64,000 nt of DNA from Clostridiaceae bacterium (GTDB lineage Bacteria > Bacillota > Clostridia > Peptostreptococcales > Tindalliaceae). The first letter of the stretch is position 1, and every line of letters starts with the position of its first letter. The DNA lies in assembly GCA_011390155.1 (NCBI GenBank), contig JAABSW010000002.1, positions 1 through 64,000 on the forward strand, in the 5' to 3' direction. Of the stretch, positions 40,506 to 55,998 are shown piece by piece. The position numbers were made by a program, and so were the translations under genes. The notes beneath the pieces are model-generated. The model searched no databases. It was not told the origin of the DNA and saw only the letters and a program-made list of their open reading frames with translations.

Positions 40506-40600
40506 CCTCTCCTTTCGGTAGCTGGCTGCCATTTTACAGGCCCTGTAGCTTTGCGTCCCTGACTTTCGATCAGGTTTGCCTTTATCGGTGGAGAGCCGGA
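40506..40600 (-). ncRNA. c-di-GMP-I (GEMM-I) riboswitch, promoter-distal copy next to the gene
   Basis: The minus strand carries the conserved GEMM-I core: AAAGGCAAAC (40583-40574), a GAAA-capped hairpin with arms CCTGA/TCAGG, GGACGCAAAGC, then GGCAGCCAGCTACCG ending at 40516. The GNRA loop and its receptor are in place. A CTCTCC segment just 5' of the core (40595-40590) is exactly complementary to GGAGAG (40512-40507), which is the Shine-Dalgarno sequence of the gene. Aptamer closure would therefore hide the ribosome binding site, suggesting translational OFF control. Recognition is by consensus memory, not by covariance search. Confidence 0.9.
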
Positions 40601-40653: not shown

Positions 40654-40740
40654 TTCATTTCGGAAACTGGCTGCCATTTTACAGGCCCTTTAGCTTTGCG
40701 CCCTTATCTTTCGATAAGTTTGCCTTTGTCGGTGGAAAGT
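40654..40740 (-). ncRNA. c-di-GMP-I (GEMM-I) riboswitch, upstream copy
   Basis: A second full aptamer lies about 70 bases before the first in the transcript: CAAAGGCAAACTTATC with a GAAA-capped CTTATC/GATAAG hairpin, GGCGCAAAGC, GGGCCTGTAAAATGGCAGCC and a closing TTTCCGA. The flanks GACTTTC (5') and GAAGGTC (3') pair with one G-U, and the 3' arm is followed at once by TTTTTG, so the closed form looks like a terminator. This copy could therefore act on transcription while the next acts on translation. Confidence 0.88.
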
Positions 40741-49109: not shown

Positions 49110-49152
49110 GAGGAGCACTACATCTCATTTTGATGTAGTGCTCCTCATTTTT
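49110..49152 (+). terminator. Terminator of the bifurcating-complex operon
   Basis: GAGGAGCACTACATC (49110-49124) pairs with GATGTAGTGCTCCTC (49132-49146), a 15-bp stem followed by ATTTTTTC. It also lies just past the end of the convergent aroB. Confidence 0.93.
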
Positions 49153-49158
49153 TCATCA

Positions 49159-50229
49159 TTAGCACTTCTTCATGATTCTCAGCAATTCCTCACCTGTCAA
49201 TCCCACCTCTTCGATGCTTCCAGATTGGTGTGGCAACAGAAAAGAGATGTTGTTTTTCCGGTTTTTTTTGTCCAAGGCCATGGCCAACACCATGTCTTCC
49301 AAAGAAAATCCGGGTATTTCCTCGATGACGGGAATCATATGTACCAGATTCGCTAGTTGGCGATACTGGCTTTCATCAATCAATTCCATTTTGAAAGCAA
49401 GTTCCAATTCAAATAACATGCCCTGGCGCAATGCCGCTCCATGGGTTACTCGGTAATCCGTCAGCTTTTCAATGGCATGACCTGCAGTGTGCCCCAGGTT
49501 CAAGATTTTTCGCAGACCAGCTTCCTTTTCGTCCTTCACCACAATATCCCTTTTGCAGGCGATGCATTTTCCAATGAGCTGTCCAATTGTTTCAGGTTCC
49601 TTCGCCACCACGGCTTCCCAATGTTCCACCAGCCACCGATGGAAACCATCACCCTGAATCAATGCATACTTCACCACTTCGCTGCATCCACCCCAAAATT
49701 CCCTGTCCGGCAGTGTATTGAGAAGCAGAGGATCAATCCACACTGCTTGCGGCGGGTAAAAGGTCCCTGCCAGGTTTTTGCCGCTTTTCAGGTTGACACC
49801 GGTTTTGCCTCCCACACTGCTGTCCACCTGGGCCAGCAGTGTGGTGGGAATTTGTATCCAGGCGATTCCCCTCATGTAGATGGAAGCACAAAACCCGGTG
49901 AAGTCACCCACTACCCCTCCACCAAAGGCCATGAGCCCGTCCCAGCGGTTGAGCTTAAGGTCGGCCAGGATTTCCAGCACCTCTTCCACCTGTCCCAGTG
50001 TTTTCGTTTCCTCTCCCGGAGGAAGGATGATGATATCCTTCTTTGAAGTAACCAGGTTTTCAATCACCTCAGGGTACAGATTTGCCAGGTTTTCGTCTGT
50101 GATTACAACCCATCTGCCCACATTGGCTGGTTTTTGTGGCACTGGTGAATTGTCATTCACCAACAGACCTTCCTGTATGATGATAGGATAGCTGCCGGTT
50201 TGCGTCTTTACCTCAAGGGTTTCCAGCAT
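49159..50229 (-). CDS. aroB: 3-dehydroquinate synthase
   Basis: A 356-residue NAD- and metal-dependent enzyme converting DAHP to 3-dehydroquinate, step two of the shikimate pathway. GGGVVGDFTGFCASIYMRGI and PTTLLAQVDSSVGGKTGVNL bind NAD and phosphate; NLGHTAGHAIEK carries zinc ligands. GGAGGAG precedes the ATG. The start lies 22 bases inside the end of aroC. Last gene of the six-gene aromatic operon; aroD, aroE and aroK are not in the window. Expression should follow the attenuator found upstream of aroF. Confidence 0.97.
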   Translation of the reverse strand: MLETLEVKTQTGSYPIIIQEGLLVNDNSPVPQKPANVGRWVVITDENLANLYPEVIENLVTSKKDIIILPPGEETKTLGQVEEVLEILADLKLNRWDGLMAFGGGVVGDFTGFCASIYMRGIAWIQIPTTLLAQVDSSVGGKTGVNLKSGKNLAGTFYPPQAVWIDPLLLNTLPDREFWGGCSEVVKYALIQGDGFHRWLVEHWEAVVAKEPETIGQLIGKCIACKRDIVVKDEKEAGLRKILNLGHTAGHAIEKLTDYRVTHGAALRQGMLFELELAFKMELIDESQYRQLANLVHMIPVIEEIPGFSLEDMVLAMALDKKNRKNNISFLLPHQSGSIEEVGLTGEELLRIMKKC

Positions 50230-51344
50230 CGTCTCATCTCCTCCAGAGAATCTTTACCAAAGACTTCCATGAATGCCTGGGCCAATGTGAACACTGTGAC
50301 CAACTCAGCCACCACAGCTGCTGCCGGCACGGCACAGGTGTCACTGCGTTCCTTAACGGCTTCATAGGACTCATGGGTATCAATGTCCACGGTGTTTAAG
50401 GGTTTCATCAAAGTGGGAATGGGTTTCATGGCACACCTTACCACCAGTTCTTCCCCATTGCTCATCCCTCCTTCAATGCCACCTGCATGATTGGTCATCC
50501 GATAATAGCCATTTTTCTCTGAATAATAGATTTCATCATGTACCTGTGATCCAGGTTTTGTTGCTGACAAAAATCCATCCCCTATTTCAACGCCCTTGAT
50601 GGCCTGGATGCTCATTAGAGCAGCCGCCAGCTGTGTGTCCAGCTTTCGATCCCACTGCACGTGGCTTCCCAGCCCCCGGGGCAACCCCTTCACCCTCACT
50701 TCCACAATACCTCCCAGTGAATCTCCGGCAGCTTTGGCCTCATCGATGACTTCTATCATTGCTTCTTCAGTTGTTTTACTGATGCACCTGACTGGAGAGA
50801 GTTCAGCCTCTGCCAGCTGGTCAAAAGATATGGACTGATTCTCCAAAGCAGCCTGGCCAATTTGTATGACATGACTGGCAGCCTGTACGCCAAAAACGTT
50901 AAGCAATTGCCGGGCAATACTGCCTGCTGCCACCCTTGCGGCCGTTTCCCTGGCACTGCTCCGCTCCAGGATGGGCCTCACATCAGACAACCCGTATTTC
51001 AGCATTCCAGTTAAATCCGCATGTCCTGGCCGGGGATGGCTTACCCGTTTGTAGTTCACATCTCCCTGGAAGGGATCCATGCCCTCCTGCCAGTTTTCAT
51101 AATCCCGGTTCATGATCAGGTAAGCCACAGGGCTGCCTGTGGTCACCCCGCCTCTGATACCGGAGAGGACTTCTATCTGGTCTTTTTCAATTTTCATTCT
51201 TCCGCCCCGTCCATACCCCTGTTGCCGCCTGGCCAGGTCATGGTCTATTCGTTGCTTGTCGATAAACACCCCTGCCGGCAATCCTTCAATGATGCCCATC
51301 AACGCTTTGCCGTGAGACTCACCTGCTGTTAAATACCGAAGCAT
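50208..51344 (-). CDS. aroC: Chorismate synthase
   Basis: A 378-residue FMN-dependent enzyme forming chorismate from EPSP, the last shared step to Phe, Tyr and Trp. LTAGESHGKALMGIIEGLPAG opens the protein, RRQQGYGRGGRMKIEKD and RSSARETAARVAAGSIARQL are signature blocks, and GGIEGGMSNG lies near the C terminus. ATG 51344 is preferred over 51353, since AGAGAGG directly abuts the earlier ATG. It overlaps aroB by 22 bases and follows pheA. FMN must be supplied reduced; as a monofunctional bacterial form, it relies on outside flavin reduction, which several nearby flavoproteins could in principle provide, though no link is shown. Confidence 0.97.
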   Translation of the reverse strand: MLRYLTAGESHGKALMGIIEGLPAGVFIDKQRIDHDLARRQQGYGRGGRMKIEKDQIEVLSGIRGGVTTGSPVAYLIMNRDYENWQEGMDPFQGDVNYKRVSHPRPGHADLTGMLKYGLSDVRPILERSSARETAARVAAGSIARQLLNVFGVQAASHVIQIGQAALENQSISFDQLAEAELSPVRCISKTTEEAMIEVIDEAKAAGDSLGGIVEVRVKGLPRGLGSHVQWDRKLDTQLAAALMSIQAIKGVEIGDGFLSATKPGSQVHDEIYYSEKNGYYRMTNHAGGIEGGMSNGEELVVRCAMKPIPTLMKPLNTVDIDTHESYEAVKERSDTCAVPAAAVVAELVTVFTLAQAFMEVFGKDSLEEMRRCWKPLR

Positions 51345-51380
51345 ACGTTTCATCCTCTCTGAAAACTCATTTAGAAGAGA

Positions 51381-52211
51381 TTACCCTCCTATGGCTTGTC
51401 TGGCCCGGGGAAAGGATCCAAACAGATAAAACCGCCTGGTCAACAGCCGTAATTTATCCAGGACATTTCGTACATGCGGCTCTTCCCGGTGACCTTCAAA
51501 ATCGATGAAAAAGACGTATTGCCCTAACTCCATTTTAGCAGGTCTTGACTCAATGCGGGACAAGTTAATTTCTGCTTCTGCAAAAAGTTGCAAGATCTGG
51601 AATAAATTCCCTGCCCTGTCATGGTGGAATGAAAAGGCAATCGCTGTTTTATCATTACCTGTGGGTGTTGAAATACCCTTCCCCAGCAGCACGAACCGCG
51701 TCTGGTTAAACTGATTATCCTGAATGTTTCCCATGATATGTTTCAACCCGTGGTGAATACCGGCCCAATGACTGGCGATGGCTGCAGAGCCGTCTCCCTG
51801 ACGCTGAGCCAGGATACAGGCAGTGGAAGTGCTTTCACAGGGGAGGAGCTGAATGTGAGGATAATGTGTTTTAAAAAAATGCCGACATTGTTCAATGGCC
51901 TGGGGATGGGAATACGCCTTTTTAACGGTTGTGATTTCGCCATCCACACTGAAAAGGTGATGGCAGACGGTGTAGATGATTTCTGCCTGTATACTGGCTT
52001 CTTCAAGTCCCAGCAGACTGTCCATCACCAGGGTCACCGCCCCCTCTGTGGAATTTTCCACCGGCAATAATCCCCGTTCCAGCTTTCCTGCTTCCACTTC
52101 TTCAATGATTTCAGAAAAAGTATGGCAGGCCACTGGGGTTAAAGAAGGAAAGGCTTCCCTGAGGGCTAAGTCACTGTAAGAGCCCTGGGGGCCTAAATAA
52201 CCACAGATCAT
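51381..52211 (-). CDS. pheA: Prephenate dehydratase
   Basis: A 276-residue monofunctional enzyme converting prephenate to phenylpyruvate for Phe synthesis. The catalytic part has GYLGPQGSYSDLALREAF, PVENSTEGAVTLVMDSLLG and NQTRFVLLGKG (the TRF motif). The C-terminal ACT domain (about 190-270) carries ESRPAKMELGQYVFFIDFEG, the ESRP motif that binds Phe for feedback inhibition. No chorismate mutase domain is fused, so a separate mutase is needed and is not in the window. Its ATG overlaps the aroA stop (ATGA). The enzyme is thus controlled both by Phe and, probably, by the operon's leader peptide. Confidence 0.96.
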   Translation of the reverse strand: MICGYLGPQGSYSDLALREAFPSLTPVACHTFSEIIEEVEAGKLERGLLPVENSTEGAVTLVMDSLLGLEEASIQAEIIYTVCHHLFSVDGEITTVKKAYSHPQAIEQCRHFFKTHYPHIQLLPCESTSTACILAQRQGDGSAAIASHWAGIHHGLKHIMGNIQDNQFNQTRFVLLGKGISTPTGNDKTAIAFSFHHDRAGNLFQILQLFAEAEINLSRIESRPAKMELGQYVFFIDFEGHREEPHVRNVLDKLRLLTRRFYLFGSFPRARQAIGG

Positions 52212-53491
52212 GAGACCACCACCAATTGTTTTAGTAAATCCTCAAAACCAGGAAAGGATACAGCAATACAGTCAGCATTTTCAACCCTGACAGGTGATTC
52301 GGCCAGCAAACCTGCCACTGCCATGGCCATGGCAATGCGGTGGTCTCCATGGCTGTTTGTGCTGCCACCCTTTATTTTTTGAGGCCCTTCAATCACCAGA
52401 CCATCTTCCAGTGTTTCCACCTGAACCCCAATCTTTTCCAACTCTTCTGCTATGGCACTGATACGGTCGGTTTCCTTGACCCGGAGTTCCCTGGCACCTG
52501 TGATGCGGGTAATGCCTTTGGCACAGCTTGCTGCCACCGCAAGAATGGGAATTTCATCAATGAGGCTGGGAACCAAGTCTTCCCCTATGTCAATCCCTTT
52601 TAATCGACTGCCACGGATACGCAGATCACCAATAGGCTCGCCACCTGTCTCCCTCTCATTGTGTATTGAAATTTCTGCGCCCATCTGTTTCAAGACGTTA
52701 ATAATGCCTGCTCTTGTGGGGTTAAGTCCCACAGCTTCAATGGTGATGTCAGAATTTGGTAAAGCGGCGGCTGCCACCATGAGAAAAGCGGCAGAGGAGA
52801 TATCCCCAGGCACTTCCACCTCTTGACCTTTTAATTCAGAGGAAACAATGGTGCGCTTCAATCCATCAACGACAAGATTCCCTCCAAAAGCTTTCAACAT
52901 TCTCTCTGTGTGGTCTCTGCTGGGCCTGATTTCTGTCACACTGGTCTCACCCTGTGCGTATAACCCGGCCAACAGTACCGCTGATTTAACCTGGGCACTG
53001 GCCACGGGCATCTGGTAATGGATCCCCGTCAAACCATCACCCTGGATAACCAGAGGAGCCTTTTTTCCGCCTTCTCTGCCTTCAATCCGTGCACCCATTT
53101 TTCTCAGTGGTACTGTGATTCTGTCCATGGGCCTGTTTCGCAAGGAATTATCACCTGTCACAATGCTCATAAAAGACTGGCCGCTGAGAATACCAGACAT
53201 AAGCCTCATGGTTGTACCGGAATTCCCCGCGTTCATCACGTCATCAGGTTCTTTCAATCCATGAAGTCCCCGTCCTTTAATGGTGATCACGTCCATGGTT
53301 TCTTCCACTTCAACACCCATTTGCTGAAAACAGCGAAGGGTGGAAAGGCAATCCTCACCCGTCAAAAATCCTTTTATCTTCGTTGTTCCCTGGCTGATCC
53401 CGCCTAGCATGACTGCCCTGTGACTGATGGATTTATCGCCGGGCACCCGGCAGGTACCCGCTACTTTAATGCCTGGTGTTATTGTCAACAT
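52208..53491 (-). CDS. aroA: 3-phosphoshikimate 1-carboxyvinyltransferase (EPSP synthase)
   Basis: A 427-residue enzyme joining phosphoenolpyruvate to shikimate-3-phosphate. Visible marks: GTCRVPGDKSISHRAVMLGG (PEP and S3P binding), NAGNSGTTMRLMSG, RPMDRITVPLRKMGA, the late ARELRVKETDRI and HGDHRIAMAMAVAGLL. ATG 53491 follows GGGGGAG; the longer frame adds nine residues. It overlaps tyrA by 26 bases, and its stop overlaps the pheA start. GNSGTT instead of the GNAGTA of enteric enzymes is common in Firmicutes. Confidence 0.97.
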   Translation of the reverse strand: MLTITPGIKVAGTCRVPGDKSISHRAVMLGGISQGTTKIKGFLTGEDCLSTLRCFQQMGVEVEETMDVITIKGRGLHGLKEPDDVMNAGNSGTTMRLMSGILSGQSFMSIVTGDNSLRNRPMDRITVPLRKMGARIEGREGGKKAPLVIQGDGLTGIHYQMPVASAQVKSAVLLAGLYAQGETSVTEIRPSRDHTERMLKAFGGNLVVDGLKRTIVSSELKGQEVEVPGDISSAAFLMVAAAALPNSDITIEAVGLNPTRAGIINVLKQMGAEISIHNERETGGEPIGDLRIRGSRLKGIDIGEDLVPSLIDEIPILAVAASCAKGITRITGARELRVKETDRISAIAEELEKIGVQVETLEDGLVIEGPQKIKGGSTNSHGDHRIAMAMAVAGLLAESPVRVENADCIAVSFPGFEDLLKQLVVVS

Positions 53492-54596
53492 GATTGTTCT
53501 CCCCCTTACTACGGGCAAAAGAATGTCCTTTGCCGCTTAATGCCTTCATGGCTGTCTGTTCCTCTTTTGCTGTTAAAAAAGCCAACCTGATCGCTCCCTG
53601 CTCACCTTCCCTGGCGTGCAGTATTTCAATTTCACGAATGTTAACGCCTGCTTCAGCCACCACTGTTGTGATGGCGGCCAGGGCACCTGGCTGGTCTTTA
53701 ATGTCCACATAGAGTTGATACCATTCAGGCAGATAATCTTTTCCTGTTTTGGGCAGCTGATCCCGAAAGGTTTTTCCTTTTGTCAGAAATTCATGGATCC
53801 ACTGTCTCTGTTCCTGTTCCAACGCCAACCTTACTTCTCTTACTTTTTCTTCTGTTTGCAATAAACACAGGGATAACTCCCTCCGGTTAAGGTGCAATAT
53901 TTCCTCCCACAAGGAAGGGTTGCCGGCAGCAATTCGGGTGGTATCTCTAAATCCACTGCCGGTAAAGGATGCAATGGTTTCATCTGCTTCTTCCCCCACA
54001 ATGTTGGCGAGAAGCGAAGCCATTACATGGGGAAAGTGACTGGTGCGTGCCAGAATTCTGTCATGTCCTTCTGCCGAAACAATGACAGGGAAAGCGCCTA
54101 AGGTGGAGACCCATGTTTTTAAACGATTGACTGTGGACTCCTGGCTTTCTTCATCAGGCGTCAAAAAGTAGTAGGCATTCTCAAAAAGTGTCGCCGTGGC
54201 AGCCTCCAGACCTCCTTTCTCCGAACCCGCCAAAGGATGTCCTCCAATAAAGTACACATTCTCCGGGAGTGCTTTGGCCGCTTCCATGGCCGGTCTTTTT
54301 ACACTGCCTAAGTCTGTCACAATGGTTCCAGGCGCCAAAACACTGGTGATGACGCGGCAGATCCCAGGATAGCTGCCTACCGGAGTAGCCAGTACAACCA
54401 GTTCAGCCTCATTGACAGCTTCTTCCAGGGAAATTGCCTTTCTTTGAATGAGTCCCCGTCCATAGGCTTTTTCCATACTTTCTGGTGATAAATCAAACCC
54501 CGTGATGACACAATTGCCTTGTTCTCCCAGGGCCATGGCCAGGGAACCGCCCATTAATCCCAGCCCTATGATGGTAATCCGTCGAAAGTCATTCAT
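53466..54596 (-). CDS. tyrA: Prephenate dehydrogenase with ACT domain
   Basis: A 376-residue NAD-dependent enzyme converting prephenate to 4-hydroxyphenylpyruvate for Tyr. RITIIGLGLMGGSLAMALGE is the nucleotide-binding turn; GGHPLAGSEKGGLEAA and the RTSHFPHVMASLLAN block hold catalytic and substrate residues. A C-terminal ACT domain (about 295-365; LYVDIKDQPGALAAITTVVA) implies Tyr feedback control. ATG 54596 is preferred to 54602 because AAGGAG lies at proper distance from the inner one. Second gene of the operon, 26 bases after aroF. Its overlap with aroA implies coupled translation. Confidence 0.96.
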   Translation of the reverse strand: MNDFRRITIIGLGLMGGSLAMALGEQGNCVITGFDLSPESMEKAYGRGLIQRKAISLEEAVNEAELVVLATPVGSYPGICRVITSVLAPGTIVTDLGSVKRPAMEAAKALPENVYFIGGHPLAGSEKGGLEAATATLFENAYYFLTPDEESQESTVNRLKTWVSTLGAFPVIVSAEGHDRILARTSHFPHVMASLLANIVGEEADETIASFTGSGFRDTTRIAAGNPSLWEEILHLNRRELSLCLLQTEEKVREVRLALEQEQRQWIHEFLTKGKTFRDQLPKTGKDYLPEWYQLYVDIKDQPGALAAITTVVAEAGVNIREIEILHAREGEQGAIRLAFLTAKEEQTAMKALSGKGHSFARSKGENNHVDNNTRH

Positions 54597-54622
54597 GGTC
54601 ATTTCTCCTTGTATGGAATCCT

Positions 54623-55624
54623 TTATCGTACGGCGTAAATTTTTTGAACTGTGTCCATCATTCGCTGAAAGTTATCATATTTTAGTGACTGTGCGCCATC
54701 AGAAAAAGCTTCTTCAGGCTGGTTGTGCACTTCGATCATTAGTCCGTCAGCGCCCACCGCCACAGCCGCTTTGGCCATGGGTTCCACCAGTGTCCATTTA
54801 CCTGTACCGTGACTGGGATCCACCATGATAGGCAGATGGCTTAATTCCTTGATCACCGGCACAGCGCTCAAGTCCAGTGTATTGCGTGTGTACGTTTCAT
54901 AGGTTCTGATACCTCTTTCACACAACACCACATTAGGGTTACCATGGGCTAAAATGTATTCTGCAGACATGAGAAATTCTTCAATGGTGGCACTCATGCC
55001 CCGTTTCAGCAAAATGGGTTTTTTGCTCTTTCCTGCCTGCTTTAGCAGGGCAAAGTTTTGCATGTTCCGGGCACCAATCTGGATCATGTCAACATATTCT
55101 TCAACCATGTCAAACATGGTTTGGTCCATGGCTTCACTGACAACCGGCATTCCTGTGGCTTCTTTTGCTTTTTTCAGGTACTTTAACCCATCTTCTCCCA
55201 GTCCCTGGAAGCTGTAGGGCGAGGTGCGGGGTTTAAAGGCACCGCCTCGAATCATGCTGGCCCCTGATTTTCGAATTTCCGATGCCACTTCCATGAGATG
55301 ATCTTCGCTTTCCACTGCACATGGGCCTGCTGCGACAATCAAGCTGCCATTGCCAATGGACACTCCGTTGATTTTCACCACTGTATCCTCCGGGTGAAAG
55401 GTTCGTGACGCAAGTTTGAAAGGATGCGAAACCCTCAGTAGTTTTTCCACGTAAACGTTGGCTTCAATCTGGCTGGGATTGATGAGCCGGGTATCACCTA
55501 CCAGCCCTAAAATTGTCTGGCCCTTTCCAACAGATTCGTGTACGTCACAACCCAAACTCACCATTTTCCGCTTAATTTTATCCACCATTTCTCTTGGGGC
55601 GGATGGCTTCATAACAATAACCAT
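54623..55624 (-). CDS. aroF: 3-deoxy-7-phosphoheptulonate (DAHP) synthase, type I beta
   Basis: A 333-residue enzyme making DAHP from PEP and erythrose-4-phosphate, the first step of the aromatic pathway. An N-terminal ferredoxin-like regulatory domain (about 1-70; [20 protein letters not shown]) precedes the barrel, as in the Thermotoga-type enzyme. Metal ligands are the Cys in [10 protein letters not shown], the His in [10 protein letters not shown], the Glu in LMIEVHNQP and the Asp in [13 protein letters not shown] 55624 follows AAGGAGG; the longer frame begins inside that site. It is the first structural gene after an aromatic-rich leader peptide and terminator, so both allosteric control and attenuation probably act here. 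Confidence 0.97.
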
Positions 55625-55715: not shown

Positions 55716-55745
55716 AAAAAGGGAGACCCTCTAAGAGTCTCCCTT
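55716..55745 (-). terminator. Attenuator-type terminator upstream of aroF
   Basis: Minus strand AAGGGAGAC pairs with GTCTCCCTT (plus-strand arms 55719-55727 and 55737-55745), then TTTAG. It lies about 45 bases past the stop of the leader ORF and about 90 bases before aroF, on the only transcript that can reach the operon from the promoter at 55970-55998. It must be passed for the operon to be expressed. Confidence 0.8.
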
Positions 55746-55790
55746 GTTTCCCGATATACTTATTAAAATTTCCGGGTATGAAAGATGTAT

Positions 55791-55922
55791 TTAGAACGGA
55801 CAAGACCTTCTATGAAGTTTTGGCCACGCAAAAGTACCGGCGCTAAAATAATAATAGTCCCCGGTAAAAAAGAAATAGCCAAACACTTCATTCAGTTGAC
55901 GAGAATTCATAACATGTTCCAT
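55791..55922 (-). CDS. Aromatic-rich leader peptide of the aro operon (43 aa)
   Basis: A short ORF running from ATG 55922 to TAA 55791, between a consensus promoter and a terminator. The peptide opens MEHVMNSRQLNEV, then has the run FGYFFFTGDYYYFSAGTFAW at residues 14-33, in which 11 of 20 residues are Phe, Tyr or Trp, and ends PKLHRRSCPF. This is the mark of a ribosome-stalling leader: shortage of charged tRNA-Phe, -Tyr or -Trp would stall a ribosome in the run and change the downstream RNA fold. An AAGGA lies eleven bases upstream. The operon encodes synthesis of the same amino acids. Translation is not proven, and the start spacing is longer than ideal. Confidence 0.78.
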   Translation of the reverse strand: MEHVMNSRQLNEVFGYFFFTGDYYYFSAGTFAWPKLHRRSCPF

Positions 55923-55969
55923 TTTCGTCACAGTCCTTTTCGATACAATGATTTCAACAAGTTATTGAC

Positions 55970-55998
55970 ATTATAATTGCTCATTCGCCATCTGTCAA
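55970..55998 (-). promoter_or_regulatory. Consensus promoter of the aro operon
   Basis: Minus strand: TTGACA (55998-55993), exactly 17 bases, TATAAT (55975-55970): a perfect sigma-A consensus. Predicted transcription start near 55963 gives a leader of about 340 bases before aroF. A promoter this strong fits an operon controlled downstream by attenuation. Confidence 0.88.

Follow-up and report, generated by a model that had tools for sequence, protein, structure and literature searches.

Widespread clostridial leader peptides with aromatic codons as probable ribosome-mediated attenuators of the aro operon

In the attenuators of the enteric trp (Trp) and pheA/pheST (Phe) operons, a leader ORF carries codons for the product of the pathway, the RNA offers four mutually exclusive segments, and a terminator stands before the structural genes. 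In Clostridia, control of amino acid genes is usually ascribed to T-boxes and DNA-binding repressors. Ribosome-mediated attenuation is also represented in Firmicutes, including Peptostreptococcaceae, by His-leaders described for small groups of genomes in some Clostridia (PMC9413887) and in Bacillus cereus (PMC2965389). The closest published case to the present one is uORFC-13-1 of Acholeplasma, which stands upstream of aroF and is reported from 24 representatives, in Acholeplasma and environmental sequences only (PMC8632094); compared by description only, it likewise combines a uORF that has Phe codons, a further base-paired element and an intrinsic terminator before aroF.

The leader analysed here precedes the aro operon within a clostridial stretch of 64,000 nucleotides (the window), and belongs to a family that shares leader ORF codons, the terminator and, in about half of its loci, the full four-segment layout with enteric trp and pheA/pheST. 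Unlike these, clostridial leaders mix Phe and Tyr (and Trp) codons, would control the shared pathway from aroF on, and place their sensor codons in a hairpin that is conserved and contains a purine-purine mismatch. Compared with the His-leaders, which concern histidine, the aromatic family is far more widespread and precedes several aro genes. The codon-bearing hairpin and the occurrence of tandem copies are the distinctive points of this family. No published description of it was found in the literature searched, the coverage of which is incomplete for subscription papers, and the text of the genome paper of Eubacterium limosum ATCC 8486 (PMC5651825) does not use the terms leader, attenuat- or aroF. 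The attenuator principle is already known, but the clostridial aromatic family is widespread and apparently undescribed.

The initial annotation had read in the window a perfect TTGACA-N17-TATAAT promoter, a 43-codon ORF with the runs YFFF, YYYF and TFAW, and the gene order aroF-tyrA-aroA-pheA-aroC-aroB, and all three readings were confirmed, the last by Pfam (Table 1). Thus, a short ORF in which the codons of the regulated amino acids are clustered lies between the promoter and the first gene, and the genes 3′ of it make, according to Pfam, the amino acids that would be sensed. The AroF protein is a DAHP synthase with a ferredoxin-like domain. Promoters of the same type also precede leaders of relatives (for example L162 and L256). 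The Shine-Dalgarno sequence of the window leader is modest (AAAGGA, about 11 nt 5′ of the ATG), and translation would start at the ATG at 55922 or at that at 55910. Folding of the window leader RNA is more stable than that of shuffled sequence (z −4.1). At the 3′ end of the operon there is a strong 15-bp hairpin (window 49110-49146), which scans as a terminator on either strand.

Table 1. Positions of leader, operon and RNA elements in the window
Feature	Position	Strand	Basis or remark
aro operon promoter, sigma-70-type TTGACA-N17-TATAAT	55970..55998	-	12/12 consensus match
Leader peptide ORF, 43 codons, MEHVMNSRQLNEVFGYFFFTGDYYYFSAGTFAWPKLHRRSCPF	55791..55922	-	homologous ORFs before aro genes, 120 fetched loci
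Outer stem, 5′ arm, UGAAGUGUUUGGCUA, flanking aromatic codons	55876..55890	-	MFE fold
Sensor codons, cluster 1, Tyr-Phe-Phe-Phe (YFFF)	55866..55877	-	in-register aromatic across leaders, alignment columns 25-31
Inner codon-bearing hairpin, 5′ arm, UACCGG	55861..55866	-	MFE fold; family helix paired 92.7% and 94.8%
Sensor codons, cluster 2, hairpin loop, Tyr-Tyr-Tyr-Phe (YYYF)	55845..55856	-	family loop codons 434/436 Phe, Tyr or Trp
Inner hairpin, 3′ arm, CCGGUA	55835..55840	-	MFE fold and family helix
Cluster 3, Thr-Phe-Ala-Trp (TFAW)	55824..55835	-	sole Trp codon in window leader; Trp at this place unconserved
Outer stem, 3′ arm, UGGCCAAAACUUCA	55813..55826	-	MFE fold
Candidate local anti-antiterminator hairpin, UAGAAGGucuuguCCgUUCUA	55792..55812	-	predicted fold; would sequester antiterminator arm
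Antiterminator 5′ arm, part a, UUCUAA, includes leader stop codon	55791..55796	-	pairs with 55734-55729; equivalent in position to family arm
Antiterminator 5′ arm, part b, UCUUUC	55780..55785	-	pairs with GGGAGA 55743-55738, predicted antiterminator-stage fold
Antiterminator 3′ arm, part b, GGGAGA, within terminator 5′ arm	55738..55743	-	predicted antiterminator-stage fold
Antiterminator 3′ arm, part a, UUAGAG, in terminator loop and at 3′ arm start	55729..55734	-	family consensus here CUCUUAGA or CUCAUUAGA
Intrinsic terminator, 12 pairs, then U-run	55719..55745	-	terminator scan
aroF, DAHP synthase, operon gene 1	54623..55624	-	Pfam PF00793 and PF18152
tyrA, aroA, pheA, aroC, aroB, operon remainder	49159..54602	-	Pfam

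A peptide search found homologous leaders in all seven family genomes searched; six of them have aroF next to the leader, and the seventh has a gene for a chorismate mutase-shikimate kinase there. With a profile built from 17 leaders, which was used for the searches of order, class and phylum, the leader was found in 82 of the 394 sampled genomes of the order and in 31 of 391 of the class; four more genomes came from the phylum sample, again with the leader before aroF. A search of genome contigs with AroF gave 80 loci, all of them from distant phyla, and the leader was absent from each. The downstream gene was aroF in 91 of 120 fetched loci. Seven loci lead instead into a chorismate mutase-shikimate kinase fusion and four into a sodium:solute symporter; LarA-like and Iso_dh-like proteins follow in three loci each, shikimate kinase and shikimate dehydrogenase in two each, and the remaining contexts were type II dehydroquinase, TyrA, tandem leaders, a masked stretch and contig ends.

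In G241 (L226/L223) and G194 (L227/L207), aroF is preceded by two successive leaders, both of them complete in ORF, hairpin, arm and terminator, and G139 (L221) likewise has two leader-terminator units in series before aroF. These tandem copies prompt the question how two attenuators that both depend on translation would work one after the other. Behind the tandem leaders of G194, at L207, the aroF frame ends early and an aroA-like frame comes next, and this aroF looks broken. In the place of an aro gene, tRNA-like sequences and a masked stretch lie behind an orphan leader and its terminator (L178, G057). In L165, L166 and L167 the leader stands 5′ of a short protein similar to the C-terminal part of isocitrate/isopropylmalate dehydrogenase (PF00180), and in one of these cases (L166/L156) a second leader then precedes aroF. 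An aromatic leader also lies 5′ of the gene for a LarA-like protein of the lactate racemase family (L233, L239, L240), which suggests a link of this enzyme to aromatic metabolism, and 5′ of a sodium:solute symporter of the SSF type (L181, L208, L211, L216), a candidate transporter of an aromatic amino acid or a pathway intermediate.

Three or four codons usually make up the hairpin loop of the aligned leaders, and 434 of the 436 loop codons counted encode an aromatic amino acid (224 F, 205 Y and 5 W). Although the one-base neighbours of these codons would encode Leu, Ser or Cys, F and Y exchange freely, Leu and Ser never substitute and Cys does so once; hence, selection acts on aromatic codons in frame and not on a U-rich loop. 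The suggestion that the leader covers all three aromatic amino acids is firm for Phe and Tyr, but sensing of Trp is doubtful, given the single Trp codon in the window leader and the restriction of Trp codons outside the hairpin-arm position to 28 of 120 leaders. A role of the conserved W of SWG in Trp sensing was also considered and rejected: this codon belongs to the stem as well, where Trp is required for base pairing, and it is replaced in the window.

The codons that flank the loop pair with each other in the family, NNC-UGG-GGC with AGC-GCY-GGN, leaving one purine-purine mismatch. In ungapped alignments this inner helix was paired to 92.7% (61 distinct sequences) and 94.8% (33 sequences), and sliding it by 1-3 columns as a control gave a pairing of 20-50%. 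Two-sided changes occurred at 4 of 7 and 5 of 7 pairs, exceeding nearly all shuffles; kinship inflates these shuffle statistics, and weight was put on the slid controls and on independent sequence classes. The window helix is displaced by one nucleotide in register, as in its MFE fold. An outer stem around the aromatic codons is visible in the family as a pairing of upstream with downstream sequence (score 23.0 against 16.5 in swapped controls), and at the window locus it scores 18.0, short of the 21 that marks the 95% shuffle level.

The peptide encoded by these codons is strongly conserved as well, in the motif S-A-G-x-F-A (of 120 leaders, 102 have the A and 97 the G), and this motif is what speaks for nascent-peptide arrest of the TnaC type, in which an aromatic amino acid or a pathway product would cause the peptide ...FYYFSAGxFA..., while in the exit tunnel, to stall the ribosome. 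However, the Ser of SAG is written AGC in 101 of about 102 instances, a C ends the codon before W whichever amino acid it encodes, and where UUG replaces UGG, GCY of the Ala mostly turns to GCA. Moreover, a rewritten helix goes along with a changed peptide: L262 has TQS...SFG in place of SWG...SAG and retains pairing through a new helix CCAAAGU/AGCUUUGG, and in the window SWG has become TGD together with the shifted helix. The free exchange of F and Y in the loop also stands against arrest. Codon choice and compensatory changes thus explain the conserved peptide motif by base pairing, and comparison of these sequences indicates that the motif is largely a shadow of the RNA stem. As the conserved residues track the paired codons and are not independent of RNA pairing, the arrest peptide was rejected, and we consider it improbable.

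Near-invariant letters of the inner hairpin go beyond those explained by pairing. This feature would fit a metabolite- or protein-binding RNA, either a riboswitch or TRAP-like, in which the mismatch hairpin binds the ligand and the ORF is secondary, and T-boxes and riboswitches are indeed the usual solution in Firmicutes. Such an RNA would leave unexplained the aromatic codons in one frame, which are conserved as much as the stem; in addition, the hairpin is smaller than known aptamers allow and not in Rfam, and its RNA varies in L262 and in the window. We regard a ligand-binding RNA as very improbable. Within an attenuator that reads aromatic codons, it is conceivable, and we offer it tentatively, that the codon-bearing hairpin is an independent sensor module, such as a programmed pause of RNA polymerase by which the ribosome is positioned as well. 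It would then represent a distinct and ancient attenuator design, which was disseminated as one unit across the clostridial shikimate regulon and, as in the tandem leaders, allows copies to be placed one after another.

Of the 120 loci, 119 have a terminator between leader and gene, and its usual place is about 105 nt 3′ of the SAG codons. The family antiterminator arm lies 15-40 nt past SAG, usually inside the ORF, and complements the 5′ arm and loop of the terminator. Arm and terminator sequences vary among lineages and match within each locus (UCUUUCUAAGA/UCUUAGAAAGA, UCUAAUGAG/CUCAUUAGA, AAAUCCCUCC/GGAGGGAUUU, CGGGAAACU/AGUUUCCCG and GUGAUACCAUG/CGUGGUAUCAC). Among 27 loci with dissimilar terminators, terminators paired better with their own arm than with those of others, and none of 10,000 permutations matched this result. 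In the family, the mean score of the antiterminator (segments 2:3) was 19.2 against 14.3 after swapping, and that of the anti-antiterminator (1:2) was 21.1 against 16.1. Segment 1 is located near the leader start, for example CUUAUUAGAAAGG (read as LIRKG), and pairs with the antiterminator arm; the control pair of segment 1 with the terminator (1:3) was at background (12.6 against 12.8). Both helices scored high in 42 loci, and in 37 of these they use the same nucleotides. Taken individually, about half of the loci for 1:2 and 40% for 2:3 fall below the 95% shuffle level, and a segment 1 that could sequester the antiterminator arm was seen in about half of the family loci. Thus, at the level of the family the antiterminator and the terminator are mutually exclusive, and the 1:2, 2:3 and 3:4 pairings predicted from the alignments correspond to the classical attenuator layout.

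These relations also bear on a further explanation, a small functional membrane peptide or a chance hydrophobic ORF followed by an ordinary 5′-UTR terminator. The window leader peptide is indeed short and hydrophobic. However, such an ORF does not account for the synonymous constraint, the near-constant presence of the terminator or the complementarity of leader and terminator within each locus, and it is disfavoured by the permutation tests. Among the explanations weighed we hold this one to be extremely unlikely.

At the window locus itself the pairing is weaker than in the family. The initial annotation had described a 9-bp hairpin with a U-run; the terminator is present, and its stem has 12 pairs by the scan. 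It had also proposed an antiterminator of GGTCTTGTCC (55807-55798) with GGAAACAAG (55751-55743). The letters exist, but this pairing is absent in the sister species L149, where a different pairing takes its place, and it was discarded. The antiterminator now predicted is bipartite, with two 6-bp pieces, and its main helix scores 11.5 against a family mean of 18; its UCUUUC motif is found in L149 as well. Before the 3′ arm of the terminator is complete, the predicted antiterminator fold (−14.0 kcal/mol) and its competitor (−14.8 kcal/mol) are about equal, and the fold with the whole terminator reaches −29.2 kcal/mol, all these energies leaving out kinetics and the ribosome. From its normal footprint, a ribosome at the leader stop codon would cover both antiterminator pieces. 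The window locus has no clear segment 1 pairing with segment 2, and the local hairpin at 55792-55812 is a candidate for the anti-antiterminator there. The family-level case for an attenuator is much stronger than that of the window locus alone.

Comparison with known RNA families points in the same direction as the initial proposal of ribosome-mediated attenuation. Rfam covariance models gave no family match in the aro leader, the only sub-threshold hit being a chance match to a miRNA model; in particular, neither Phe_leader nor Trp_leader was matched there, and the T-box model (RF00230) had no match in the leader or in the rest of the window. The genome has 14 T-boxes elsewhere, and those with a readable first gene precede asnS, pheS, ilvH, ilvB, valS and leuS (genes recognised by eye). 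T-boxes likewise sense tRNA charging in Firmicutes by termination and antitermination, whereas the aro leader would sense it by codon translation. The absence of a T-box from the leader and the conservation of both ORF and hairpin in aligned leaders of relatives agree with the proposal, and it is strongly supported by the in-frame aromatic codons, the terminators and the pairings with compensatory change. The compared sequences establish a leader ORF that has aromatic codons and is linked to aro genes, together with the hairpins and the pairings that compete. Judged from them, the aro leader very probably attenuates transcription by way of the ribosome and in this manner senses how far tRNA-Phe and tRNA-Tyr, and perhaps tRNA-Trp, are charged.

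We infer the following course of stalling, termination and readthrough in vivo. Upon shortage of aromatic amino acids, the ribosome would stall at the Phe/Tyr codons, melt the codon-bearing hairpin and, where segment 1 is present upstream, block it. Segment 2 near the 3′ end of the leader would then be free to pair with segment 3 (5′ arm and loop of the terminator), and with this 2:3 pairing formed, transcription would continue into aroF. With good supply, the ribosome would reach the stop codon and cover or pass segment 2, and the terminator would form. If the leader is not translated, segment 1 or the local hairpin would sequester segment 2, and the terminator would again form.

Our results suggest that leader peptides govern a large regulon of aromatic biosynthesis, one that is missing from Rfam. 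The family predicts which genes would respond to aromatic starvation, including the SSF transporter and the LarA-like gene, and its more than 100 natural sequences allow four-segment attenuation to be studied through covariation. Tractable species carry the leader as well, and these very probably include Eubacterium limosum and Acetobacterium woodii. Elsewhere in the window, a tandem pair of c-di-GMP-I-GGC riboswitch aptamers was observed on the minus strand (40513-40589 and 40658-40733).
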